Shown here piece after piece: positions 2,078 to 11,420 of a DNA stretch of 64,000 nt. Where the stretch lies: NCBI RefSeq assembly GCF_015207425.1, contig NZ_JADEWZ010000013.1, positions 1-64,000 of the forward strand. Direction: 5' to 3'. The position numbers and the translations under genes are program-made. Under the pieces are notes generated by a model. It saw nothing but the letters and a program-made list of their open reading frames with translations, was not told the DNA's origin and did not search any database. The DNA comes from Lusitaniella coriacea LEGE 07157 (lineage in GTDB: Bacteria; Cyanobacteriota; Cyanobacteriia; Cyanobacteriales; Spirulinaceae). Position 1 is the stretch's first letter. Every line of letters begins with the position of its first letter.

Positions 2078-5000
2078 ATGAGCGCACCTACTCCAGCCCT
2101 AGCAACGAAATACGACCCTTTTTCCACTGAAGCCAAATGGCAGCAATATTGGGAAGAAAATAAGGTTTTCCAAGCGAACCCCAATCCTAGCAGCGATCCC
2201 TACAGCATTGTTATTCCGCCGCCGAACGTGACGGGAAGCTTGCACATGGGACACGCCTTTGAGATTGCCCTCATCGACACCCTCGTGCGCTACCATCGAA
2301 TGCTGGGCCGCGATACCCTCTGTTTGCCAGGAACCGACCACGCGAGCATTGCCGTTCACACCGTCCTCGAAAAGCAGCTTAAAGCAGAAGGCACCAATCG
2401 CTACGAAATCGGACGAGAGGCATTCCTCGAACGCGCTTGGAAGTGGCGAGGTGAATCCGGGGGAACCATCGTTAATCAACTGAAACGGATGGGACTCTCC
2501 GCCGATTGGTCGCGGGAACGCTTCACCCTCGACCCTCAATTGCGCGACGCGGTGGTCGAAGCCTTTGTTCGCCTCCACGACGAAGGACTGATTTATCGTG
2601 GCAATTACCTGGTGAATTGGTGTCCGGAATCCCAATCGGCAGTATCGGATTTGGAGGTTGAAAATAGGGAAGTTAAGGGGCATTTGTGGCATTTCCGCTA
2701 CCCCCTCGCCGATGGAAATGGGTTTGTGGAAGTGGCGACAACGCGCCCAGAAACCATGTTGGGGGATACGGGAGTGGCAGTGAATCCCCAGGATGAGCGA
2801 TATAAAGATTTAATCGGGAAAACCTTGATATTGCCCCTCATCGGGCGAGAAATCCCCATTTTTGCCGATGAGTTAGTGGATGCGGAATTCGGGACGGGAT
2901 GCGTCAAAGTGACTCCCGCACACGACCCTAACGATTTTGAAATGGGACAACGCCACAATTTGCCTTTTATTAATATCCTGAATAAGGACGGCACGCTGAA
3001 TGAAAATGCGGGAGAATTTGCCGGACAGGATCGATTTGTGGCGCGAGAGAATGTCGTTCGGCGGTTAGAGGAAGAAGGGTTATTGGTAAAAGTTAAAGAT
3101 TACGATCATACCGTTCCCTACAGCGATCGCGGAAAAGTCCCCGTTGAACCCCTTCTTTCGACCCAATGGTTCGTAACCATCGCTCCCCTCTCCCAAAAAG
3201 CCCTAGAATGTCTCGATGGCTTGAACTCCCCTCGCTTTGTCCCCCCACGCTGGCAAAAGGTCTATCGCGATTGGTTGGTGCGCTTGCGGGATTGGTGCAT
3301 CTCTCGCCAACTCTGGTGGGGACACCAAATTCCCGCCTGGTACGCCATCAGCGAAACCGACGGTCAAATCACCGACAGCACTCCTTTTGTGGTCGCTCAC
3401 AATGAAGAAGAAGCTTGGGAAAAAGCTGTTTCGCAATTTGGGGAAAATGTCAAGCTAGAACAAGACCCCGACGTTCTCGATACTTGGTTTTCTTCTGGGT
3501 TATGGCCCTTCTCTACAATGGGTTGGCCCCAGGACACCGAAGACCTCAAAGCCTACTACCCCAACACGACGCTAGTTACGGGGTTTGACATCATTTTCTT
3601 CTGGGTGGCGCGGATGACCATGATGGCGGGCCATTTCACCGGAGAAATGCCGTTCAAGGACGTTTACATTCATGGCTTGGTGCGGGATGAAAATGGCAAG
3701 AAAATGTCAAAATCTTCCAATAATGGCATCGATCCCTTGATTCTGGTGAATAAGTACGGAACCGATGCGCTGCGCTACACCCTGATTCGGGAAGTCGCAG
3801 GAGCAGGTCAAGATATCAGCTTGCAGTACGATCGGAAAACCGATCAATCGGAGTCAGTCGAAGCGTCGCGCAATTTCGCCAATAAGCTGTGGAATGCAGC
3901 GCGATTCGTGTTGATGAATTTGGAGGGGAAAACTCCCGAACAATTGGGATATCCTCAGATCGAAGATTTGGAAATGTGCGATCGCTGGATTCTCTCGCGC
4001 TTCTATCGTACCGTCCAACAAACAAGGAATTACGTCGATACTTACGGATTGGGGGAAGCGGCAAAAGGACTTTACGATTTTATCTGGGGAGACTTCTGCG
4101 ACTGGTATATTGAACTTGTCAAGCCTCGACTTCGGGAGGAAGCAAACTCAAAATCGCGCCAAGTTGCCCAGCAAACCCTTGCTTATGTATTAGAGGGGAT
4201 TTTGAAGTTACTGCACCCCTTTATGCCGCATATTACGGAAGAAATATGGCACACGCTGACCCAAAAAACTGAGGAAGTTTTAACCTTACAATCCTATCCA
4301 GACGTTGATGAAATCCTCAAGGAGAACCAAATGAGCGAGTCAACCGACCCAGTAACTCCCGAACCGAATTTGGAACCCACTGTTGCAGCACAACCGGAAT
4401 TTTCACCGGAAGCTGTTCCCGAAGAACCACAAGCGCCGGAAACTCCGGAACCAGAGTCCTCCGTTGAAGAAGGGGAGACTGCACCACCCCCTGCTTTTGG
4501 AGAGGAAGTTGTTGTGGAGGATACGATGGAACATCCTGTTACTTTGGAGGATGAAATCGCTGTAGAAGATACAGCAGAACAACCTAAAATCACCCCCTCC
4601 GGTATAGCAGACGCGATCGCGCAGTCGGAGGAAACCGAACCCGAAGAACTGGAAATAGATCCTCCTGTTGTCAAGGATGCGCTCTCAGAGGAATCTACCC
4701 CAGGACAACACGAGCAACCGGAAACACCAGAAAGTCCCTCTCCTGTCGGAGAAAGCGAAGTCGCGCAACCGGAAGAAATCCTACCTCCCGTTGCAGGAGA
4801 AACAGAAGACGAACCCTTTATTGCCAAGGAGTCCACCCCCATGTCCGAACCCGAACAACCCACTGTTGTACCCGCTGAAGAACCCCAAATAACAGTCGTT
4901 CCGCCTTCTAAGAGAACGGAATCTCAAATCACCCAAATTCTCGACCAAATCGCCAAATTCTTAGGGCGACTGCCTCAAGAATTGATTCACTTCTTCTCTC

Positions 5001-5257
5001 ATTACAGCAGACCCCTAACCGTCGTTGGAGTAATCTTAGGAATTTTTATCCTAATCAGCGTCTTAGGGGCAACTCTGGATGCAATTCATAGCATTCCTTT
5101 ATTTTCCCCGATTTTACAACTGATCGGCTTGATTTATATCATCTGGTTCATTATCCGCTACGTCTTTCAATCGAAAAATCGCAGCGAACTCACCGCAATC
5201 TTTGAGCAACTTAAAGAACAAGTCGTCGGGACAAGCGATCTTAAAAAAGGCGAATGA
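2078..5257 (+). CDS. valS: valyl-tRNA synthetase, catalytic part with CAAD membrane anchor (split gene, part 1)
   Basis: Class I aminoacyl-tRNA synthetase charging tRNA-Val. The HIGH motif is HMGH at 56-59 and KMSKS lies at 542-546. The editing (CP1) domain sits between them, and the anticodon-binding domain ends near residue 745. A Pro/Glu-rich linker of about 200 residues (about 750-950) follows, then a CAAD domain with two hydrophobic helices (about 980-1000 and 1012-1030). CAAD is the known cyanobacterial appended domain that anchors some synthetases to thylakoid membranes. The protein stops just after CAAD. The remaining C-terminal segment of ValRS is encoded by the next frame, which overlaps by four bases (ATGA). 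The CAAD anchor therefore lies exactly at the break. Confidence 0.9.
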
Positions 5258-5760
5258 CAACACAAACCTTAATCGATCCAAAATTAGAAGCGCAGTTCGA
5301 GTTGCTCATTGAGGCAATCCGCACTATCCGCAATTTGCGCGCGGAAGCGGAGGTCAAACCGGGAGTCAAAGTCCCCATTATTTTGCAGAGTGAAAGCGAA
5401 CAAGAACGTCAAATCCTAGAAAGCGGGCAATCCTATATTCAAGACTTAGCCAAAGTCGAGGAATTGACCGTTACACCCAATCTCGAAGCAGAGTACAAGC
5501 AAGCTTTTGTGGGGGTTGTGGGGACGATACAAGTTCTCATGCCTTTAAGTGGGGTTGCCAATGTTGATGCCTTGCGTGCCAAACTCGAAAAAAAATTGGA
5601 CAAACTCGAAGGAGAAATTGCATCTTTGAGCAATCGTTTGGGCAATCCTGGATTTACGAACAAAGCACCCGAAGCCGTCGTACAGGGTGCAAAAGATGCG
5701 TTAGCAGAAGCTCAGAAACAATCGGAAATTTTGCGCGATCGCGTGGAACGTTTAAAGTAA
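5254..5760 (+). CDS. valS: valyl-tRNA synthetase C-terminal arm (split gene, part 2)
   Basis: This 168-residue frame begins with [18 protein letters not shown] and [16 protein letters not shown], the end of the ValRS anticodon-binding region. It finishes with the C-terminal coiled-coil arm (about 100-168, with [13 protein letters not shown] and [15 protein letters not shown]) that contacts the tRNA elbow. It starts at ATG 5254, overlapping the stop of part 1 in the -1 frame. It could be translated by termination-reinitiation; AAGG sits only 3 nt upstream. Alternatively, the two frames would fuse if the A6 run at 5243-5248 had one more A, so a sequencing error or transcript slippage is possible. 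No stand-alone role is expected. Confidence 0.85.
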
Positions 5761-5921: not shown

Positions 5922-6443
5922 ATGGTTAACAATCCTATGTTACACCTAGCCCAAGTGCAAAAAAACCAATCCTCAGACGGGATAGAACTACAATTATTAG
6001 CCACGCAAACTGCTAAAAATATCTGGGTTGTCGGTAATGGCAAAACTGTTGCCCTCACAGAACAGACCCTATCAGAGGCTTCTGTCTCAAGCAACAATCT
6101 GTTGGTGTTAGTAGACTTGGACGAAAATCATCAAATTCTCAACCTCCAAAATGTCACAAACTGGGTTTTAGAGTTAGTTAAAACCCTCTCCAATCCAGAA
6201 AATGCCAGCGACTTCTCCTTAGAGGAAGAAGAAGCCAGAATCGAGCAGTGGCGACAGGAATTGACCTCGCAAAGTCAAGATATTACGCGCCGAAATCTTG
6301 AAATTGAAACTCGTCGGGAGCAAATGCAAGAACTCGAAGCTTCGCTGCAACAGGAAAAAGAAGAACTCGAACGCCGTTGGCAAGAACTGAAAGTCTTAGA
6401 AGAACGACATAAAGGGACATCAGGATTATCAGAGAGTGAATAG
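5922..6443 (+). CDS. coiled-coil protein resembling the N-terminus of HmpF
   Basis: The 173-residue protein has an N-terminal segment with MLHLAQVQKNQ and a small alpha/beta region up to about residue 95. A strongly charged coiled coil (about 100-165, rich in Glu, Gln and Arg) follows. The MLxLAxVxK start resembles HmpF, the coiled-coil pilus-motility protein of filamentous cyanobacteria, but HmpF is several times longer. The start may be ATG 5922 or 5937; the latter gives the HmpF-like N-terminus. The 3' end overlaps the next glycosyltransferase gene by 8 nt, implying co-transcription. A role in motility or polysaccharide secretion is inference. Confidence 0.5.
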   Translation: MVNNPMLHLAQVQKNQSSDGIELQLLATQTAKNIWVVGNGKTVALTEQTLSEASVSSNNLLVLVDLDENHQILNLQNVTNWVLELVKTLSNPENASDFSLEEEEARIEQWRQELTSQSQDITRRNLEIETRREQMQELEASLQQEKEELERRWQELKVLEERHKGTSGLSESE

Positions 6444-9113: not shown

Positions 9114-11420
9114 CTACTTCAAAGACTGAAGCTGTCGAGAAACCTCATCTTGACTATAAATTGCGTAGGGATTCGGCAGTTTTCCCTTCATTCCATTGGC
9201 AACTACCCCTAAAATCGAAGCCCTCGACATTTTCAGCCCCTCCAGCGCCTTCATCACCGTCGCGCGTTCCGTTTTTTCCAAGCGAACCACCAAAATAATG
9301 CCATCTGCATTAGAAGCCAGAAGATTGGCATCGGCCAAACCCAATAGCGGCGGACTGTTATAAATCACCAGATCGAAAAAGCCCTGGAACTGGATCATTA
9401 GATGCTCCATCTTAGAAGAAGTCAGCAGCTTAATCGGATCGCCAACATTTGAACCGCTACTCAAGAAAAAGAGATTGCTATCCATCGGCGCTTGTTGGAT
9501 CGTGTCATTGAGGCTCAAATCGCTTTGCAGCGCGTCGCTTAAGCCCTTTTTATTTTTCAGTCCCAAACGCAAATGAAGCTGCGAGCGGCGCAAATCTGCG
9601 TCGATCAACAAGACCCGTTGACCGATCTTAGCTGCCGTTTGAGCCAGTTCCAGCGCGATCGTCGATTTTCCTTCACTCGGTGCAGCAGAACTCACCACCA
9701 AAGAGCGAATGGGACGCTGCTTAGAACCCAACAAACTAATATTGGTATAGAGCGAGCGGAATGCCTCGCGGAACGCGCCGGGATACTCCGGTTGCGGCAA
9801 GAAAAGATTGGGTGCATCCAAAGCCTGAGCCTTGCGAATCTGCTTTTGCAGTTGCCTTTCATAGTTCTGAAGCGACTTCACAAAGGGAATCGTTCCCAGC
9901 AGGCGCAATTTTGTCAAGCCTTTCACCTCTTCTGGCGTGTGGTAAACCGCATCGAGAATTTCTACGATAAATCCAACCCCAATCCCTGCCAACAGGCTCA
10001 AAATAACCGCCACAGCCAGCAGTCGTTTCTTATCAATTGAAGAGGAGGTCATCAGTTGACCCGTTGTGGTTCGCCACAGATCCGGCGGCGAAATCAGTTC
10101 CCAAGGAATCTTACGCTGAGAGGCATCGAGCTGGAGCGCTTCGCGTTTTTCCAAAAATGCTTTTAAGCTATCTGTGGCGACCGCAACGTTGCGTTCGAGG
10201 TCGGAATAGCGACGCAACACCGAGGGAAAGACATCGAGTTTTCGATCGAGTTGTTGCTTGTTGTTTTGGAGATAGCGTTCGCGAGCTTCCAAGTCCTGAA
10301 TTCTAACCCCAAGAGTTTGCCGAGACTTTTCCGCTTGTTCGACGAGTAAGCGTTGCAAATTTTCTTGCTTTTCCCGCAAGACTTGAATCGGCGGACTGCT
10401 CTCCCGGAATTGAGTAGACTGCGATGCAATCTGGGCTTCAACAGTGTAAAGCTTGTCGATCAAACTCCCGTAGAGATTATTGGGATCTCGCGAGAGAATC
10501 GCAATCGGATTTCCCGTGGTAATTTCTTCTTGGAGATTGTCGTAACTCGCTTTTATTTCCTCCAGTTGCGCTTGAACGCCCATCAATTCCGCATCGATAT
10601 TGCGTTTTTGCGCGGACAAGTCGCCGGCGGTTTGGGCGGGAAAACTCAGATCGTAATTTTGTCGTAATGTTTGTAATTGAGCCTCGAAGGTGTTGACGCG
10701 CTTTTCGAGTTCGGGGAGTTGCTCGTCGATGAATTGAACGCCTTGTCGAAGGCTGGTGAGCCGTTCTTGAAGAGAATATTGAAGATAGGCTTGAGCGAGA
10801 GTATCGAGGACGAATTTAACTTTTTCTGGGTCTTCGTGTCGATAGTGAACCCGCAAAATTTTTGTCCCGACCTCTTTACCATCTTTTACATAACTGATGC
10901 GGCTTAGTTCCAAATCTATTAGTAGAGAGGTGTAGTTGAGTTTGGGATATTTCGCCCGCAGCTCTTTGACCACAGGCGTGAGAATTTTAGGGCTGGTGAG
11001 AACCCGAATTTGCGTTTCGTAATCGACTAAATCCGCTTGATCGACTCCAACTTTCGTTAATTCTGTGGCTCCAACGCTCGTTCCTGTTTGCGCTGAGAGA
11101 GACAGTTTTGCCAAGCGACCTTCTGCGGTGACAGGTTCGGCAAGAACTTGGAAAGAACCGTCGTAGAATACTTTTGCGCTTTCGGCTTTCCAAAGAATTA
11201 AACCGCCAGAAATTCCAGAGAACAGGAAAGTCGCGATTGCCATTGCACCAGCGCGACGGCGAATTACGGCCATTAACCAGGCAAGATCGACTTTTTGACC
11301 CTCTTCATCGCTGAGTTGCGGCACGTTCCCATTCGTAACAGAAGAGTCTTCAGACCGACTGTAAGGGTTAGTTGCCAATGATTGGTAGTTGCGTTCCGCG
11401 TCCATAGCTCCTCCATCCAT
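9114..11420 (-). CDS. polysaccharide co-polymerase with bacterial tyrosine kinase domain (Wzc-like)
   Basis: 768-residue inner-membrane protein. A first TM helix near residues 58-78 precedes the Wzz-type periplasmic domain, which has a long coiled coil (about 215-440). A second TM helix near 470-490 leads to the cytoplasmic BY-kinase. The kinase shows Walker A (SSAAPSEGKST, about 577-587), Walker A' (LLIDADLRR, around 605) and Walker B (DLVIYNSPP, about 684-692). Only two Tyr remain near the C-terminus (NPYAIYSQDE), a sparse tail. It controls polymerisation and export of capsular or exopolysaccharide together with the Wza-like protein encoded just upstream on the same strand. A later Met (residue 6) is an alternative start. 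Confidence 0.9.
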   Translation of the reverse strand: MDGGAMDAERNYQSLATNPYSRSEDSSVTNGNVPQLSDEEGQKVDLAWLMAVIRRRAGAMAIATFLFSGISGGLILWKAESAKVFYDGSFQVLAEPVTAEGRLAKLSLSAQTGTSVGATELTKVGVDQADLVDYETQIRVLTSPKILTPVVKELRAKYPKLNYTSLLIDLELSRISYVKDGKEVGTKILRVHYRHEDPEKVKFVLDTLAQAYLQYSLQERLTSLRQGVQFIDEQLPELEKRVNTFEAQLQTLRQNYDLSFPAQTAGDLSAQKRNIDAELMGVQAQLEEIKASYDNLQEEITTGNPIAILSRDPNNLYGSLIDKLYTVEAQIASQSTQFRESSPPIQVLREKQENLQRLLVEQAEKSRQTLGVRIQDLEARERYLQNNKQQLDRKLDVFPSVLRRYSDLERNVAVATDSLKAFLEKREALQLDASQRKIPWELISPPDLWRTTTGQLMTSSSIDKKRLLAVAVILSLLAGIGVGFIVEILDAVYHTPEEVKGLTKLRLLGTIPFVKSLQNYERQLQKQIRKAQALDAPNLFLPQPEYPGAFREAFRSLYTNISLLGSKQRPIRSLVVSSAAPSEGKSTIALELAQTAAKIGQRVLLIDADLRRSQLHLRLGLKNKKGLSDALQSDLSLNDTIQQAPMDSNLFFLSSGSNVGDPIKLLTSSKMEHLMIQFQGFFDLVIYNSPPLLGLADANLLASNADGIILVVRLEKTERATVMKALEGLKMSRASILGVVANGMKGKLPNPYAIYSQDEVSRQLQSLK

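Follow-up and report, generated by a model that had tools for sequence, protein, structure and literature searches.

Two reading frames for one synthetase

The window, which is the whole 64,000-nt stretch of the Lusitaniella coriacea LEGE 07157 genome analysed here, carries valS as two open reading frames (Table 1). An earlier note on this DNA had described valS as lying in two frames, the first ending just behind a CAAD domain, and had assigned to the second, in the -1 frame, the rest of the anticodon-binding domain and the coiled-coil arm. Both frames were found as described, and the assignment of the second was borne out by Pfam and by alignment with the valyl-tRNA synthetase (ValRS) of Thermus thermophilus (1gax). 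ORF 1 matches tRNA-synt_1, Anticodon_1 (positions 1-114 of 148) and CAAD (residues 970-1051 of 1059), and ORF 2 matches Val_tRNA-synt_C at residues 103-168. The T. thermophilus enzyme is a single chain with no CAAD in the aligned stretch, and the two window proteins align with complementary parts of it, ORF 1 residues 10-742 with 1gax 5-707 and ORF 2 residues 8-165 with 1gax 712-859, so that a gap of four residues in 1gax holds both the CAAD domain and the break.

Table 1. Features of the split valS locus, in window coordinates (G numbers denote genomes compared in the text)
Feature	Position	Strand	Basis or remark
valS-N (1059 aa): catalytic part of ValRS with the larger share of the anticodon-binding domain, then an acidic/proline-rich linker and the CAAD anchor at the C-terminus	2078..5257	+	ORF, Pfam, 1gax alignment
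Linker of about 660 nt that joins the ValRS core to CAAD	4328..4987	+	longest among 18 compared genes
CAAD, a CURT1/CurT-like membrane anchor that here forms the C-terminal end of the catalytic chain	4985..5230	+	91.4 bits, cut-off 30.7
TAA stop in the ORF 2 frame	5242..5244	+	bounds any frame-joining slip to 5245-5257
A6 run	5243..5248	+	not found at the split in G004 or G007
ATGA overlap, ORF 2 start on ORF 1 stop	5254..5257	+	
valS-C: alpha/beta domain closing the anticodon-binding region and Val_tRNA-synt_C coiled-coil arm; 168 aa	5254..5760	+	ORF, Pfam, 1gax alignment, AF2, Foldseek

Modelled alone with AF2, valS-C is predicted to fold as a long helix, strands with short helices, and then a helical hairpin (mean pLDDT 86, pTM 0.65). 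A Foldseek search with this model ranked 1gax first (prob 1.00), and the best solved matches were ValRS and IleRS chains; 4xkz, a ValRS anticodon-binding domain, matched 96 columns of the model with an rmsd of 1.9 A. Against 1gax the overall value was 7.1 A, and the pose of the coiled coil is therefore unmatched.

The CAAD domain of valS-N passes the Pfam cut-off of 30.7 (91.4 and 85.9 bits), which places the protein with the CAAD-bearing valyl-tRNA synthetases, ValRS^C. Just 8 residues of ORF 1 follow the domain, and the remainder of the enzyme is ORF 2, so CAAD does not lie inside a continuous chain here. The linker that precedes it is acidic and proline-rich and measures about 220 residues, compared with 21-113 in 17 other genes (taking CAAD starts as matched). 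A second, stand-alone CAAD protein, presumably CurT, is encoded elsewhere in the same genome (C20:24431-24682, L001; open frame of 140 aa, 112 bits). Between positions 4700 and 6000, promoter-like sites occur at chance level (1 versus 1.1 expected), and terminator-like patterns number 5 versus 1.7 expected (sd 1.3). Two of the latter, on the + strand, fall within the CAAD stretch before the junction (window 5077-5127) and, if real, would lower valS-C. Downstream, a small conserved gene (MLHLAQVQ... or MLYLAQV...; window 5922-6443) follows valS in the window and also in G004, G007, G022 and G420.

At the junction itself, the four-base ATGA overlap of the two ORFs was confirmed, as was the earlier observation that one more A in the A6 run would fuse the frames. 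Because a TAA codon closes the ORF 2 frame just upstream, the frames are joinable only by a -1 event or by one added base between 5245 and 5257. Reading the sequence by eye, we saw no Shine-Dalgarno-like site at good spacing before ORF 2.

The break in related genomes

The C-terminal part of valS (hereafter the tail) was detected in 12 of 13 genomes of this cyanobacterial family. In nine of these it belongs to one long frame of 1070-1189 aa, whereas the tail frame is short in three, namely the window (171 aa from stop to stop), G004 (182 aa) and G007 (175 aa, in an assembly of 3 contigs). Comparison with valS of close relatives, which the earlier note had proposed, thus revealed G004 and G007 to be split at the homologous place, and the split is kept in related species. 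In these two genomes the tail starts behind CAAD with an ATG located 96 nt (G004) or 75 nt (G007) after the end of ORF 1; an alternative TTG start 21 nt earlier is possible in G004. Both of their ORFs share one frame, in which the stop of ORF 1 and one more in-frame stop intervene, so that a single slip cannot fuse them.

For comparison we used 15 fused genes, nine from the family and six from outgroups with CAAD at the same place, all of them in one frame. The distance from the end of CAAD to the tail anchor is 120 nt in G004 and 123 nt in G007, as against 45-279 nt in the fused genes, and because these distances fall within the fused range the spacer is the former linker, no longer coding. 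In the window the same distance is 41 nt, with the frame moved by one. A methionine lies no more than five residues before the tail anchor in all three split genes and in one of the 15 fused genes (G001), and the ATG of the window sits at, or one codon from, the places where ORF 2 starts in G007 and G004. ORF 1 ends in Gly-Glu-stop in both the window and G007, from GGCGAATGA and GGCGAATAA. Our reading by eye of the GGCGAA before the stop, shared with G007, suggests that the window probably lost about 75 nt of spacer at a later time, leaving the ATGA overlap; a MAFFT DNA alignment of the three junctions did not align the GGCGAA of the window with that of G007 and left the spacer ambiguous. Elsewhere, G023 (L069) and G034 (L070) carry an insert inside the tail rather than before it (a 'position 820' type of place), and the window CAAD gave no tblastn match to these inserts at E 0.01.

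We then considered whether the three splits share an origin. A ValRS tree of 21 genomes joined the window and G004 as sisters (100/97), and a branch with support 98/95 had all nine fused genes of the family on the same side. G007 was grouped weakly (74/35) with the fused genes in this tree, and forcing the three split genes together cost 1.29 log units and was not rejected (p-AU 0.299). Because the placement of G007 was inconclusive from ValRS alone, an independent RNA-polymerase tree was constructed from rpoC1 and pieces of its two neighbours, taken as rpoB and rpoC2. With 30 genomes, this tree united the three split genomes in one clade (100/99), and they were also together (95/91) in a tree of RNA polymerase and ValRS combined for 18 genomes. 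One genome, G008, represented by only 40% of columns, falls apart from the rest of the family in the RNA-polymerase tree. Given the single clade, one event explains the three splits. Since outgroups with CAAD at the same site are fused, the simplest reading is that the fused gene is the ancestral form and that the break arose later. Judged from sequence, valS-N of the window is by descent a member of the ValRS^C family and in layout a derived variant of it.

The 16S gene was found in seven of the 13 family genomes and was used as pairwise identity only. Identity to the window was 94.0% for G007, 93.2% for G004, 92.0% for G009 and 91.2% for G001; the value for G003, 88.3%, was taken over a longer stretch with flanks. 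Two 16S copies in G005 were 92.0% and 80.8% identical to the window (L074, C6, over 1061 columns), and the more distant copy may be foreign or misassembled.

A tail search across the order covered 388 genomes, of which 369 gave a match. Tail frames were listed for 198, and among these no further split behind CAAD was found; the other 171 matching genomes carry no frame length in the order listings, some of them being covered by surveys of the families of G046 and G025. Apart from the three split genomes, nine with a frame below 700 aa were inspected together with G333 (713 aa), and none of these ten is split behind CAAD: the frames of G206, G319, G212, G354 and G345 end at a contig end, and those of G183, G370, G342, G333 and G022 are broken inside the core. 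All 14 matches in the family of G025 (15 genomes searched) lie in frames of 1060-1102 aa. In the family of G046, where CAAD occupies the other known ValRS site, frames reach at least 933 aa in 115 of 118 genomes. The valS of G406 is found as two pieces, one of which runs into a contig end, and that of G428 (L122), a 3.2 Mb genome, is broken inside the coiled-coil arm. In G420 (L121) the frame is broken directly after CAAD, giving an ORF of 927 aa and a tail frame of 172 aa that includes the coiled coil in another frame, and the congeners G398 and G438 are fused; this may be a second fission or an error, in one genome only. About seven frame breaks were met overall, and by our own estimate it would be somewhat surprising, though not beyond chance, for one of them to fall in a short linker. 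The tail alignment itself comprised eight sequences, the window and seven of the 11 loci from the named-genome scan.

Function of the divided enzyme and competing explanations

If the frame broken in mid-gene marked decay, ORF 2 or both halves would be pseudogene pieces and another ValRS would do the work. In the window's own genome (114 contigs, 99.96% complete), the tail was matched at one place only and the core gave one strong match; the other core matches were 27-40% identical, in frames of 973, 865 and 554 aa that we infer to encode IleRS, LeuRS and MetRS. Core and tail searches of these 114 contigs thus found no second full-length valS. Tail divergence was also compared at equal core divergence, using a fit to 35 of 36 fused pairs from which the near-identical pair G005-G009 was omitted. 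The three split pairs differ by 31.2, 37.1 and 40.6%, where the fit to fused pairs predicts 31.5, 36.2 and 35.2% (sd 3.4), and because they sit where fused pairs sit, the tail is not visibly decaying. Relaxed constraint was not detected by this measure, although one of the three pairs, G004-G007, lies 1.6 sd above expectation. The split has moreover persisted over three genera (16S of the window versus the two sisters, 93-94%), and we regard decay as extremely improbable. It is also very unlikely, if less so, that the split is real and ORF 2 is a free protein with another job, such as a general tRNA-binding factor, while the ORF 1 chain charges tRNA alone. The compact predicted fold of ORF 2, carrying the tRNA-binding arm of ValRS, would suit such a role; against it, the tail shows no clear rate shift and lies directly behind valS-N in all three genomes, and in ValRS the tRNA elbow is gripped by the arm. 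In G007 (L054), a second stretch resembling the ValRS core, at 23% identity, begins some 2.7 kb downstream of the tail gene (9793-11001 when turned to the valS strand) and continues past the end of the compared segment; it is probably another class I synthetase.

The earlier note had left three options for the junction: a real split with coupled translation, slippage on A6, or a sequencing error. Programmed -1 frameshifting or transcriptional slippage on the A6 run could yield fused ValRS from some messages, since the run falls within the sole stretch where a -1 shift fuses the frames and AAA at 5246-5248 is able to slip onto AAA at 5245-5247. The AAA before it, however, would move back onto TAA, which leaves no X XXY YYZ heptamer, and no stimulatory RNA fold was found at the window junction (z -0.81). 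A slippery site with a stimulatory fold, conserved in relatives, was thus not found, and in both split sisters the arrangement of the ORFs rules out fusion by one slip. Slippage is left without support by these results, and we consider it very unlikely. Sequencing error was rejected as a general cause, because G004 and G007 are split in a way that differs at the nucleotide level from the window, and it could apply to the A6 run of the window alone. If a seventh A were missing there, valS of the window would run in a single frame, either because it had fused again or because it had never been split, and the split would be confined to G004 and G007. One A added to the run opens the frame and gives a post-CAAD linker of 14 residues, the shortest fused linker seen being 15 (G024), and the window junction is unlike those of both sisters and one base from a fused frame. 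Yet the window genome is the sister of G004 within the split clade, its ATG stands at the place of the sisters' ORF 2 start, its ORF 1 ends '..GE stop' like that of G007, and A6 is a short homopolymer in a genome with 0.75% contamination; a missing base is accordingly improbable. Of the option of a real split with coupled translation, the split stands, being common to a clade of three genera, and the coupling is suggested by the ATGA overlap.

Together, these comparisons point to an inherited gene fission of valS. It is very probable that valS was broken once, behind CAAD, in the ancestor of the three genera, and that two coupled chains now reassemble as ValRS at the thylakoid membrane. The comparison of split and fused genes shows that stop codons turned the linker behind an already inserted CAAD into a non-coding spacer and that a new start was provided by an ATG immediately ahead of the 'TLIDP' with which the C-terminal part begins; in the window, judging by eye, the spacer would have been deleted later to give the overlap. 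ORF 1 would then provide a catalytic subunit with CAAD as its C-terminal membrane anchor. Because no well-spaced ribosome binding site is seen, ORF 2 is likely to be translated by termination-reinitiation at the ATGA, which would yield a small tRNA-binding subunit. At the membrane, to which CAAD tethers the ORF 1 chain, the two chains would come together as a non-covalently assembled alpha-beta ValRS. The CAAD insertion had already placed a long flexible excursion between the two parts, and this may be why the cut could be tolerated.

Known split synthetases and the meaning of the fission

LeuRS is a class Ia synthetase, normally one chain, and AlaRS is a class II enzyme. The LeuRS of Aquifex aeolicus differs from the window ValRS in being another enzyme, divided at another position and with no known membrane anchor there. 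Like the window ValRS, it is a synthetase encoded as two, and is described as having two subunits (Xu et al. 2002, as given in a citing passage). The AlaRS of Nanoarchaeum equitans, described as two open reading frames (PMC3491384), is likewise a natural two-gene synthetase, although unlike the window it belongs to an archaeal reduced genome with many split genes. Natural split synthetases are therefore already known. For ValRS, no report of a split was found in our literature searches, in which subscription journals were thinly covered.

The closest known system is ValRS^C of Anabaena sp. PCC 7120 and its relatives, the same enzyme with the same CAAD between the anticodon-binding and C-terminal parts (PMC4893482); the window site is taken as the 'position 750' type of that study. 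There CAAD is internal in one chain, whereas in the window it closes the catalytic chain, and a second gene encodes the rest of the enzyme. The main text of that paper reports no split ValRS and does not contain the word 'split'. According to the same source, CAAD targets the Anabaena enzyme to thylakoids, its removal has little impact on catalytic parameters, and the CAAD sites in several synthetases, ValRS included, are on the surface opposite to the tRNA (PMC4893482). A site on that surface, with so little influence on catalysis, fits a place where a cut is tolerated.

It is possible, although we hold this only tentatively, that insertion of CAAD makes a synthetase divisible, in that after a membrane hairpin has interrupted the chain only packing holds the parts and the linker behind CAAD can be cut. 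The outcome would be a catalytic subunit anchored in the membrane and a dissociable, translationally coupled tRNA-binding subunit, and such cuts may recur, the break just behind CAAD at the other site in G420 being a candidate.

To our knowledge, it is unusual for an essential enzyme of one chain to be divided between two genes and to stay so in several genera. For annotators, a valS that looks frameshifted in this group is not simply an error. The stages of the process coexist in living relatives, with a valS that shows no CAAD match (G036), genes with CAAD fused, and genes split with a spacer or with an overlap. This makes it a testable question whether insertion of a membrane anchor releases a covalent constraint on a synthetase, and whether a loose tRNA-binding part offers a new handle on valylation at the thylakoid.
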